Below are positions 1,501-28,450 of a stretch of 33,754 nt of DNA, piece after piece; position 1 is the first letter of the stretch, and every line of letters begins with the position of its first letter. The DNA comes from Bacillota bacterium (GTDB lineage: Bacteria; Bacillota; Clostridia; UBA1381), in assembly GCA_021203665.1 (NCBI GenBank), contig JAJQAT010000029.1, positions 1 to 33,754 on the forward strand, in the 5' to 3' direction. Position numbers and translations under genes: made by a program. The notes below the pieces were generated by a model. The model did no database searches. It saw only the letters and a program-made list of their open reading frames with translations, and was not told the origin of the DNA.

Positions 1501-3079
<1,579 letters not shown>

Positions 3080-3080
3080 A

Positions 3081-4757
3081 TTAGTTATCCTCCTTTTTCG
3101 GAAGAGTCGCTTCATTAAGCGCGTCGCCTGTCGGCTCAAACGGACTTACGTTTACAACAAGAAGATAAGAGCCGTCCGCCGCCATCATTTTGTCTATAGC
3201 CGCCTCAACGCCGCTGTTTTCCGTAACAACGCCGCTGTCGATTCCGTATGCCTTGGCAAGCATCGCAAAATCGGGTTTTCCGTCTATCGTAACCGCCTGA
3301 TAGTTCGACTTATACAAAAGGAACTGATGCTCATGCACCATACCGAGACGGTGATTTTGGAAAAGCACCATTTTAACGGGTATATCCCACTGCATCATGG
3401 TACCCATTTCCGGCAAATCCATCTGGAAGCTGCCGTCGCCCATTACGGCTATAACAGGCTTTGAACCAGCCGCCGCCACGGATGCGCCTATTGCCGCCGG
3501 AAGTCCGTAACCCATTGTACCGAATCCGCCGGAGGTCAAAAGTGAGCGCGGTGATGTGAATTTGAAATTATTCGCGCACCAAATCTGATTTTGTCCGACC
3601 TCGGTGGAAATATATACGTCGGAATTTGTCTTTTCCGAAAGCACGTTAAGAAAATACCTCGGATTTACATAGCCGTTATCTTCGCTGAAAGGCTTATGCG
3701 TGAAACGGCTGCGAAGCTCATCAGCCTCCTCAATCCACTGCTTATCCGCCTTAAAGCCGGTAATCTGCGGCGTAAGCTGCTCAAGCACGTCCTTTATATC
3801 GCCGACAACCGGAATATAAGGCTGTACGTTTTTACCGATTTCCGCCGGATCTATGTCTATATGTATCAGCTTGTTGCCCTGCTCAAGCCCCTTTACGTTA
3901 GCAACGGTTCTGTCGCCCAGTCTTGAACCCATTACGATTACAAGGTCCGCGCGGTTAAAAATCATATTTGCTCTTTTTACTCCGTGCGAGCCTATCATTC
4001 CGTAGTATCTCGGATTGTCCGTCGGAAGAGTGCCTATGCCCATCATTGTTGAAACAACGGGAATATTGGTTTCCTTAACAAATTTTCTGAACTCGTTTAC
4101 CGCGTCGGATATAACTATGCCGCCGCCCGCGAGTATAACAGGCTTTTTAGCGCCCTTGATTGCCTCGGCAACCTTTTTAACCTGGGATTCGTTCGCCTTG
4201 CCGATAAGCTTGTAGCCTCGGATACTGACCTCCTCATCCTCCTCGGGATAATCAAATTCCGCTTTCAGAATATCCATCGGGAAGTCAATAAGCACCGGAC
4301 CCGGGCGGCCCGTGTTCGCGATATGGAACGCCTCGTTCACAACCTTTGGAATCTCAAGTCCGTCTTTAATAAGATAGCTGTGCTTGGTAAAGGGCAACGT
4401 CGCGCCGGTAATATCAACCTCCTGGAACGCGTCCTTACCGATAAGGCTTGAAATAACCTGACCCGTAAGCGCTACCATCGGAACCGAATCCATATATGCC
4501 GTCGCGATACCCGTGATAAGGTTTGTCGCGCCCGGACCTGATGTAGCGGTACATACGCCCGCTGTTTTTGTAACCCTCGCATAGCCTGACGCCATGTGAG
4601 CGGCTCCCTGCTCGTTACGTGTTAAAATATGCTTGATTGAAGAAAACGACAGCCTGTCTATTATGGGACAGTTAGATGCTCCGGGATAACCGAATACAAC
4701 CTTGACGCCGTTTTTCTCCAGTGTTTTAACAACCATTTCAGCACCGGTCATTCTCAA
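3081..4757 (-). CDS. ilvB: Acetolactate synthase large subunit
   Basis: 558 aa ThDP enzyme; VFGYPGASNCPIID, EQGAAHMASGYAR, GDGSFQMDLPEM. Start may be TTG at 4757 or ATG two codons later. Confidence 0.95.
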   Translation of the reverse strand: MRMTGAEMVVKTLEKNGVKVVFGYPGASNCPIIDRLSFSSIKHILTRNEQGAAHMASGYARVTKTAGVCTATSGPGATNLITGIATAYMDSVPMVALTGQVISSLIGKDAFQEVDITGATLPFTKHSYLIKDGLEIPKVVNEAFHIANTGRPGPVLIDFPMDILKAEFDYPEEDEEVSIRGYKLIGKANESQVKKVAEAIKGAKKPVILAGGGIVISDAVNEFRKFVKETNIPVVSTMMGIGTLPTDNPRYYGMIGSHGVKRANMIFNRADLVIVMGSRLGDRTVANVKGLEQGNKLIHIDIDPAEIGKNVQPYIPVVGDIKDVLEQLTPQITGFKADKQWIEEADELRSRFTHKPFSEDNGYVNPRYFLNVLSEKTNSDVYISTEVGQNQIWCANNFKFTSPRSLLTSGGFGTMGYGLPAAIGASVAAAGSKPVIAVMGDGSFQMDLPEMGTMMQWDIPVKMVLFQNHRLGMVHEHQFLLYKSNYQAVTIDGKPDFAMLAKAYGIDSGVVTENSGVEAAIDKMMAADGSYLLVVNVSPFEPTGDALNEATLPKKEDN

Positions 4758-4796
4758 AAAAATTCCCCCTTTTGATTTAATAATTAATAATGCTTC

Positions 4797-4950
4797 GGCG
4801 CGCCGATTATCCGCGCCTTAAAAGACCATCGTATTGATTTGTCTTGTGGAAAATCGAATTTTCTAAAGCGTCATGCTTTATGAAAGGATGGTGCTGCTCT
4901 GCCTCCGCCCTTTTATGGCGGCGGCATGGTACAAGGATATTATCGTACCA
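4797..4950 (-). promoter_or_regulatory. Structured 5' leader RNA of the ilvBNC operon, class not recognised
   Basis: Minus-strand RNA can form ATGGTAC...GTACCAT, GCC-G-CCGCC/GGCGG-A-GGC, long-range ACCATC(4892-4887)/GATGGT(4830-4825) enclosing AAAGC/GCTTT and GAAAAT/ATTTTC hairpins, then GGCGCG/CGCGCC. No T-box signature seen. Confidence 0.6.
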
Positions 4951-4954
4951 TATT

Positions 4955-4983
4955 ATTTTATCAGCGAAAGGGTTGATTGTCAA
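4955..4983 (-). promoter_or_regulatory. Sigma-A type promoter for ilvBNC
   Basis: Minus strand TTGACA (4983-4978), 17-nt spacer, TAAAAT (4960-4955), ending just upstream of the first leader hairpin. Confidence 0.8.
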
Positions 4984-6704: not shown

Positions 6705-7253
6705 CTATATTAAATTAACCCCGTATCCGTTCACCATAACACACATCTCTCCGTCCGAGCCGACGCTTGTCCCGAATTTCATCAAAAACGACGACATACT
6801 CGCGGAAAACGACGCCGAATAGGACGATACGTAAGACGACGCGTAAGACGACGCGAACGACGCGCCCGTTTCGTATTCGTATTCATATCTGTACATATAA
6901 GACGTGACATAGGACGTTATATAGGACGTCATAAAATAGCTTGACATAAAATAGGAGGATATAAAGCTTGACGCGGACGCGGCATATGAAGAAGCCGCCG
7001 GCAAAGCCGAAGCGTCCGCCGAAATTCCGGCATCCTTAAAGCGCGGCGAAAAACCGCCGCAGACAATGCCCTTTTTTGCAAATTCCTCCTCCGTTGCGTC
7101 TGCAAAAGCATAAACCTCGCCTATCGCGGTATAGGAAATATTCTCCGTTAAGGGTAAAACAAAAGTATTATCACATAATCCTATTGATGTGACACCCGCC
7201 TTCAGAGCCTGCAAAAGCTCCTGTTGTGAAAAAACAATTATATCAAATGCCAT
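6705..7253 (-). CDS. Hypothetical protein with degenerate Ser/Tyr-rich (SSY/TSY) repeat region
   Basis: Start set at ATG 7253 with AAGGAGGG 7 nt upstream. Contains SSYFMSSYFMTSYITSYVTSYMYRYEYEYE...ASSYASSYVSSYSASFSASMSSF, flanked by a non-repetitive N-domain and C-terminal VNGYGVNLI. Confidence 0.75.
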   Translation of the reverse strand: MAFDIIVFSQQELLQALKAGVTSIGLCDNTFVLPLTENISYTAIGEVYAFADATEEEFAKKGIVCGGFSPRFKDAGISADASALPAASSYAASASSFISSYFMSSYFMTSYITSYVTSYMYRYEYEYETGASFASSYASSYVSSYSASFSASMSSFLMKFGTSVGSDGEMCVMVNGYGVNLI

Positions 7254-7317
7254 TGCCTTTCCCTCCTTCGCAATCTTATGCACTTATTGTATCATAAAAC
7301 GCGGCTAAATGGTAGCA

Positions 7318-27411: not shown

Positions 27412-28155
27412 TCACGCCTCCTTTATAACGCCGAGAGCAGTAAGCTCCCTTTTGCAGTTCTTTTCAAGCACATTGAATATCATAACCGACAGAATACCCT
27501 CCGCTATCGCGATGGGAAGCTGCGTTGTCGCGAAAATACCCATAAACTTTACAAGCGACGCGAAGAAGCTCTGATCCGGAAACGCGAGAGCAAGCTGAGC
27601 CGAGGTTACGCAGTATGTAAACAAGTCCCCGATTGTCGCCGCGAGGAATACCGCAAGTCCTTTGGGCGCTTTCAGCTTTTGACAGAGCTTAAAGATTCCG
27701 AAGGACACAAAGGGTCCCGCTATTGCCATTGAAAATGTGTTCGCACCGAGAGTTGTAAGTCCGCCGTGCGCGAGCAAAAGCGCCTGAAACAGCAGCACGA
27801 TTATGCCGAGTATCGACATAACGGACGGACCGAACAATATCGCGCCGAGACCCGTGCCCGTGGGGTGCGAGCAGCTTCCCGTAACCGACGGGATTTTAAG
27901 CGACGAAAGTATAAATACAAATGCTCCCGCGAGGGCAAGAAGTATTTTCACCTTGTTATCCTTTTTAAACTGCTTCTGCATGCTTATTCCGCCCGCGATA
28001 AGGAACGGAACGCACAGAACGCCCCAAAAGATACAGTAACCGGCGGGAAGATAACCCTCCATAATGTGCATTGCGAATGCGTTTGTCATAGGAATGACCA
28101 GCAGCAGCGTCAGCGCCGCCACCAACAGCTTTGTTTTCCTGTTTGCTAAAGACAT
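27412..28155 (-). CDS. cbiM: Cobalt transport substrate-specific component CbiM
   Basis: [39 protein letters not shown]-terminus after signal peptide. Confidence 0.95.
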
Positions 28156-28258
28156 AAATTTTCTCTCCTTTTTATGTAATATATGTTTTAGCACACAAGT
28201 GACTTGAAGATAGTTATGAAACTTTAAGGCAGGCGGAAAACTTGTGGTTTTTACATAC

Positions 28259-28450
28259 CAAAAAAAGCCGTAAGGATTTTGATGTTATCCTATGGCTTAA
28301 AATCTTGATGATTTTGCCATTGTCCCATCGCTCGTAGGCACAAATGTGCTCGATTTCGGCAGGCGATCCGACTGTAACGGCAGCGTGACTGCGGAGGATT
28401 TTCGCCTCGCTTCTCCTTTTAAAAATGCGGCAGGGCATTTACCGAAAAAG
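28259..28450 (-). ncRNA. Cobalamin riboswitch with downstream terminator-like expression platform
   Basis: Minus strand: AAAAGGAGAAGCGAGGCGAAAATCCTCCGCAGTCACGCTGCCGTTACAGTCGGATCGCCTGCCGA..., then GCCATAGGAT...ATCCTTACGGCTTTTTTT hairpin; directly upstream of cbiM. Confidence 0.85.

Follow-up and report, generated by a model that had tools for sequence, protein, structure and literature searches.

The locus examined here, within a 33,754-nucleotide stretch of DNA (hereafter the window), raises the question of whether a ~190-nt structured leader upstream of ilvB on the minus strand is a regulatory RNA and, if so, of what kind and how it might act. An initial annotation of the same sequence had placed a good promoter immediately before a series of hairpins, and regarded the region as a candidate new leader class for branched-chain amino acid (BCAA) genes. 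Comparison of sequences indicates that the leader is real, conserved, lineage-specific, structured and ilvB-specific, and that it is recognisable as sequence in one genus only. Our favoured reading, with slightly better than even confidence, is that of a cis-regulatory leader, specific to this lineage, which belongs to the ilvBNC operon and would act on translation through competition between an internal helix, P1, and a sequestor of the start site.

Structure and conservation of the ilvB leader

The leader is followed by ilvB, ilvN and ilvC, in that order, on the minus strand. The features of the locus are:

1501–2529, minus strand: ilvC, ketol-acid reductoisomerase (Pfam)
2579–3139, minus strand: ilvN, acetolactate synthase small subunit with ACT domain (Pfam); listed ORF start overlaps the ilvB 3' end
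3081–4757, minus strand: ilvB, acetolactate synthase large subunit (Pfam), the gene proposed to be regulated
4739–4770, minus strand: ilvB start region, with Shine-Dalgarno sequence (SD) GGGGG, U7 spacer, UUG start (4757–4755) and codons 5–7, GGUGCUG (4745–4739)
4797–4817, minus strand: H3, GGCGCG/CGCGCC hairpin
4826–4830, minus strand: P1 3' strand GAUGG, proposed anti-sequestor (GATGGT of the initial annotation lies at 4830–4825)
4836–4855, minus strand: P2', candidate recognition hairpin GAUUUUC-CACAA-GA(C)AAAUC, built around the invariant 13-mer UUUUCCACAAGAC
4865–4879, minus strand: AAAGC/GCTTT hairpin, optional (about half of the genus has it)
4887–4891, minus strand: P1 5' strand CCAUC (ACCATC of the initial annotation lies at 4892–4887)
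4890–4896, minus strand: anti-start strand CAGCACC, with 7 bp of complementarity to GGUGCUG (ilvB codons 5–7), overlapping the P1 5' strand
4901–4925, minus strand: H2, GCC-G-CCGCC/GGCGG-A-GGC hairpin of variable sequence
4926–4951, minus strand: H1, ATGGTAC/GTACCAT 5' hairpin at the transcript start; sequence drifts between species
4955–4983, minus strand: promoter TTGACA-17-TAAAAT (TTGACA 4983–4978, TAAAAT 4960–4955) with extended -10 TG

Elsewhere in the window, a minus-strand ORF at 6705–7283 carries a repetitive SSYFMSSYFMTSYITSYVTSY tract (Ser/Tyr-rich repeats).

The promoter is strong, was present as first described with the extended -10 TG in addition, and would set the transcript start directly ahead of H1; the same promoter lies ahead of ilvB in most genera of the family. 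In the ilvB leaders of sister genera (L020–L031, L084–L105), whose lengths span ~30 to ~260 nt, both the promoter and a 5' transcript start similar to GTAYGAWAATA are seen repeatedly in different genera; several species of genus g9 are almost leaderless.

The fold energy of the leader corresponded to z = -3.9 against 200 dinucleotide shuffles, none of which folded as well, and the sequences of all the inverted repeats named in the initial annotation were located on the minus strand. Of the proposed helices, ACCATC/GATGGT (P1) and GGCGCG/CGCGCC (H3) were retained, AAAGC/GCTTT proved optional, and the GAAAAT/ATTTTC arm (within 4863–4849) was abandoned: it contained zero covarying pairs and is superseded by the overlapping, better supported P2', the hairpin that appears instead when the leader by itself is folded to its energy minimum. 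H2 was found in nearly all 14 relatives with differing sequences and retained pairing; P1 pairing was kept in all aligned relatives, the helix being nearly invariant with two G-U variants. The examination of relatives' leaders for covariation, which the initial annotation had called for, revealed it in H3 (three pairs changed on both sides in the genus alignment, the best covariation within the genus) and in a single P2' pair (A-U to G-C). The functional unit reaches beyond the proposed interval of 4797–4983, into the ilvB start at ~4739–4770.

The leader was present in 14 of 16 genomes of the genus, the other two having no ilvB match, and occurred once per genome, solely before ilvB (14/14 ilvB-bearing genomes). 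A covariance model of its core gave exactly one match per genome of the genus (E 1e-12 to 1e-21), these 14 matches including the sequences used to build the model; run against 95 genomes of the order and a sample of 391 from the class, it produced no convincing copy. Two further matches, L050 (E=0.004) and L162 (E=0.003), were taken as chance because they lacked ilvB context. In the genus alignment UUUUCCACAAGAC was invariant, CAGCACCAUC and GAUGG were nearly so, and the sequences of H2 and H3 drifted. Conservation among relatives' leaders, on which the initial annotation had made its proposal depend, was thus found, and across the 14 genomes it was well above chance. The relatives' records carry the labels Oscillospiraceae, Lachnospiraceae MD329 or Clostridia, and the names of several suggest that they come from gut samples. 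No related leader was seen at ilvD of the genus, where ilvD closely follows an upstream gene.

Known RNA classes and the leader-peptide question

T-boxes are a mechanism for controlling BCAA operons in many Firmicutes. In some Firmicutes ilv genes are controlled by a ppGpp riboswitch, ykkC-2a (PMC10272879). Searches against Rfam covering the window and twenty loci of relatives returned no match at the leader at curated cut-offs and chance-level matches only at permissive thresholds, so that the significant match which would have refuted the initial proposal did not appear, and no known Rfam class was found in sister-genus ilvB leaders. A lone tmRNA-like and Leu_leader match in L005 was discarded, being below cut-off and away from the leader. 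The ykkC-clan models were likewise unmatched in the leaders of the window and its relatives, which agrees with the reported lack of a ykkC core; the ilvB leader shares ilv genes with the ppGpp riboswitch and differs from it in lacking a ykkC-clan match and in copy number. Far from ilvB, an AdoCbl-II (cobalamin) riboswitch match barely over the Rfam cut-off was recorded at 28353–28426 on the minus strand of the window, upstream of an ORF (27412–28194) resembling by eye a CbiM-like cobalt-uptake membrane protein and of another ORF of CbiQ-like appearance.

Two established modes of control deserve consideration here. That the leader might be a T-box too divergent for the Rfam model is suggested by the occurrence of T-boxes in the genus and by the ACCA/UGGU contained in P1. 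Rfam detected T-boxes in 16/16 genomes of the genus, at loci that, where read, lay before thrS or pheS (genes identified by eye from protein starts); in the same genomes it found none at ilvB even at permissive E-values (RF00230), and the leader has no AGGGUGG-type bulge, in keeping with the initial annotation, so that we regard a hidden T-box as extremely improbable. A leader-peptide attenuator has precedent, since the earlier ilvB-OMG, Leptospira ilvB and Corynebacterium ilvB-II motifs were reinterpreted as upstream ORFs (uORFs; PMC10272879), and for this reason a uORF was tested for with care. A frame over H1 can be read as YDNIIVP in some species, and leuA of the same genus appears from its anatomy to be under leader-peptide control. 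Against this, the ilvB leaders of relatives had no shared start codon or shared upstream ORF, no SD before any conserved uORF candidate and in-frame stops at places differing between species, and none of 37 leaders, whatever the genus, had an Ile/Leu/Val density significantly exceeding that of its shuffles (best 7/100 shuffles, L030). Nor was a terminator-like site seen in the window leader on the minus strand; inspection of relatives' leaders found no strong stem with U-run before the SD, some having a short U-run after P1. We consequently rejected a leader peptide as an explanation, to which we assign very little probability, and the absence of a Leu/Ile/Val-rich peptide noted in the initial annotation extends to relatives.

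The leuA leader peptide of the genus (L152–L161; in the window's own genome, G000:C229) has the form M...NNLLLLS followed by a stop, with the codons CTC CTA CTC CTA, and is succeeded by a terminator.

Structured leaders upstream of ilvB have been described by the Breaker laboratory as the ilvB-II, ilvB-OMG and Leptospira ilvB motifs. Two of these, ilvB-II and the Leptospira motif, do not extend beyond a single genus, and ilvB-II occurs once per genome (PMC10272879, PMC8632094). Those three motifs have their own uORF rich in Ile/Leu/Val codons, whereas this leader has none, and ilvB-II ends in a terminator, also lacking here. In Streptomyces the livJ motif (SRC-36-2), a candidate leader linked to BCAAs, is predicted to sequester the SD (PMC11109978); by its description it is set apart from the ilvB leader in genes, phylum and architecture.

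Predicted pairing between the leader and the ilvB start

When the transcript was folded together with the coding start, CAGCACC (4896–4890) paired with GGUGCUG (4745–4739) in nearly all relatives. This pairing, which was missed in the initial annotation and gives a more concrete mechanism, is mutually exclusive with P1 because CAGCACC overlaps the 5' side of P1. The sequestor was the minimum-energy fold in 12 of 14 leaders and also in L090, from sister genus g16; in L014 it lay 1.2 kcal/mol above the minimum, and L008 was without it. States containing P1 were 1.5–9 kcal/mol above the minimum-energy fold. Many relatives have an A-rich stretch of leader, AAAAAAUUUC or UUUCAAUAAA according to the group and UCUUAAAAAA in L090, that lengthens the sequestor helix as far as the U-rich spacer separating SD and start; the stretches differ between species but the spacer targeted is the same. 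In the window species this second arm is ambiguous.

The CAGCACC segment was the part of the leader most complementary to the start in most relatives, with no better window in 10/12 in a scan of all windows. Compared with shuffled segments its complementarity gave p values of 0.003–0.10 in 11/12, of 0.003 in L090 and of 0.017 in L094 (another genus), while shuffling of whole leaders gave modest duplex z-scores (-0.5 to -3.6), weaker than the segment tests. The ease with which an A-rich leader pairs with a U-rich spacer counts against the sequestor. In g2, g4, g8 and most of g6 the complementarity between leader and start did not exceed that of shuffles, and the claim of a sequestor is therefore restricted to g1, to g16 and, with less force, to a single species of g6; in g9 and g10 it is suggestive only.

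Codon conservation at the ilvB start favours the sequestor. Of the 68 fourfold sites in ilvB codons 1–170, no more than 5 are invariant across the genus, three of them lying at codons 4, 5 and 6 (hypergeometric 2e-4; 0.004 for codons 5 and 6 alone), whereas ilvD and leuA, taken as controls, showed no clustering of invariant fourfold sites at the start. Codons 4 and 5 (ACC and GGT) show conservation in further genera as well, ones whose leaders lack this strand, so part of the constraint may be general, which leaves codon 6 as the most informative of the three sites. The sequestor helix is nearly invariant, with two A-to-G changes that both still pair with U, and since it hardly varies, covariation cannot prove it and it remains a prediction. 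By prediction, a leader strand is complementary to the start region and is alternatively paired inside the leader, as would be expected of a translational sequestor switch.

Proposed mechanism, alternatives and significance

Because the leader can pair with the ilvB start region, it probably switches translation on and off. By computation, CAGCACCAUC pairs either with GAUGG, forming P1 around the hairpin with the CACAA loop, or with GGUGCUG of ilvB. With P1 formed, the ribosome would have access to its site (ON), which the long-range helix between leader and coding sequence would hide (OFF); by the order of transcription P1 may form first, the sequestor only after synthesis of the ilvB message has begun. 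The UUUUCCACAAGAC hairpin inside P1 could, speculatively, be the sensor: a ligand or protein signalling low branched-chain amino acids might bind it, stabilise P1 and allow ilvB translation. An activating signal of amino-acid shortage is favoured, with low confidence, because a conserved domain coexists with an exposed start. Neither an intrinsic terminator nor a leader peptide would take part. Two exclusive pairings, one hiding the ribosome site, are likewise found in translational riboswitches and autogenous operators that sequester the SD; here the side predicted to be hidden is the spacer and codons 5–7, and not mainly the SD.

Comparison with sister genera bears on what might be recognised. 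The ilvB leaders of g4, g8 and g10 have a hairpin with an invariant CCAUACG, and among 13 sequences (including the genus and g2) all nine positions of the stem of this hairpin type were changed on both sides. Stem covariation was 0.62 versus 0.21 in shuffles, in a test that favours these hairpins because they were chosen by loop and ability to fold. Across ilvB leaders of the family, ACA or CAUA was present in 48% of hairpin loops and in 16% of those in shuffled-leader folds. From the similarity of their loops, it may be guessed that P2' and the CCAUACG hairpin are homologous. The final hairpin of L090 contains CACAAGAC, an 8-mer identical to part of the invariant core of the window leader, on a different stem. 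A possible likeness of the CAC/CAU loops to tRNA anticodon loops (Val, Ile) was dropped, U33 being absent.

Several readings differ from translational control by a P1-sequestor switch in what the conserved core is held to be. An RNA-binding protein or other trans factor might act as in autogenous operators, reading loops that are CACAA in this leader and CAUAC in sister genera and thereby regulating translation or stability. Such an arrangement, which we rate as unlikely, is consistent with CCAUACG stems that change freely while pairing is kept and the loop stays invariant in three genera, and with loops containing ACA or CAUA being three times commoner than in shuffled-leader folds (0.48 vs 0.16); the cross-genus hairpins were, however, chosen by loop, A/C-rich loops may merely avoid mispairing, and there is no candidate protein. 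A riboswitch for a metabolite or alarmone (e.g. ppGpp, a 2-oxo acid or a BCAA), with P1, P2' and the optional hairpin as aptamer and the translational switch as expression platform, would account for a closed domain with a short invariant core in a ~190-nt leader, its specific gene context and the competing sequestor. It is rather unlikely in our estimation: a single copy per genome in a single genus is unlike most riboswitches, the core is small and AU-rich, and ykkC/ppGpp models find no match. The conserved block might instead be a DNA operator for a transcription factor, the AAAATTCGATTTT palindrome, lying within the transcribed leader. The AT-rich inverted repeat and the strongly conserved promoter fit this idea, but the palindrome is imperfect across species, the conserved stretch is asymmetric, reaching to CCACAAGAC, and the compensatory changes in H3 and P2' are those expected of RNA, which makes an operator improbable.

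The suggestion of a new BCAA leader class holds in so far as the leader is conserved, covarying and without an Rfam family; it is limited by a distribution that, by sequence, covers one genus, with one of the proposed arms wrong and another optional. A broader version is offered tentatively, at less than even confidence: a new regulatory RNA class for BCAA synthesis in a family of uncultured gut Clostridia, in which a near-fixed pentaloop (C-CAYAM-G) on a stem of freely changing sequence would recognise a metabolite or protein and be coupled to fast-evolving sequestor helices pairing with the first ilvB codons.

Riboswitch-like ilvB leaders of earlier work proved to be leader peptides, and the present leader passes the uORF test that those failed. 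In the same genomes leuA has a classic peptide attenuator, and thrS and pheS are preceded by T-boxes. The 7-bp helix between leader and coding sequence is a concrete prediction that can be assayed with reporters. If true, the P1-sequestor switch would give uncultured gut bacteria one more means of controlling the enzyme that carries out the first common step in branched-chain amino acid synthesis.
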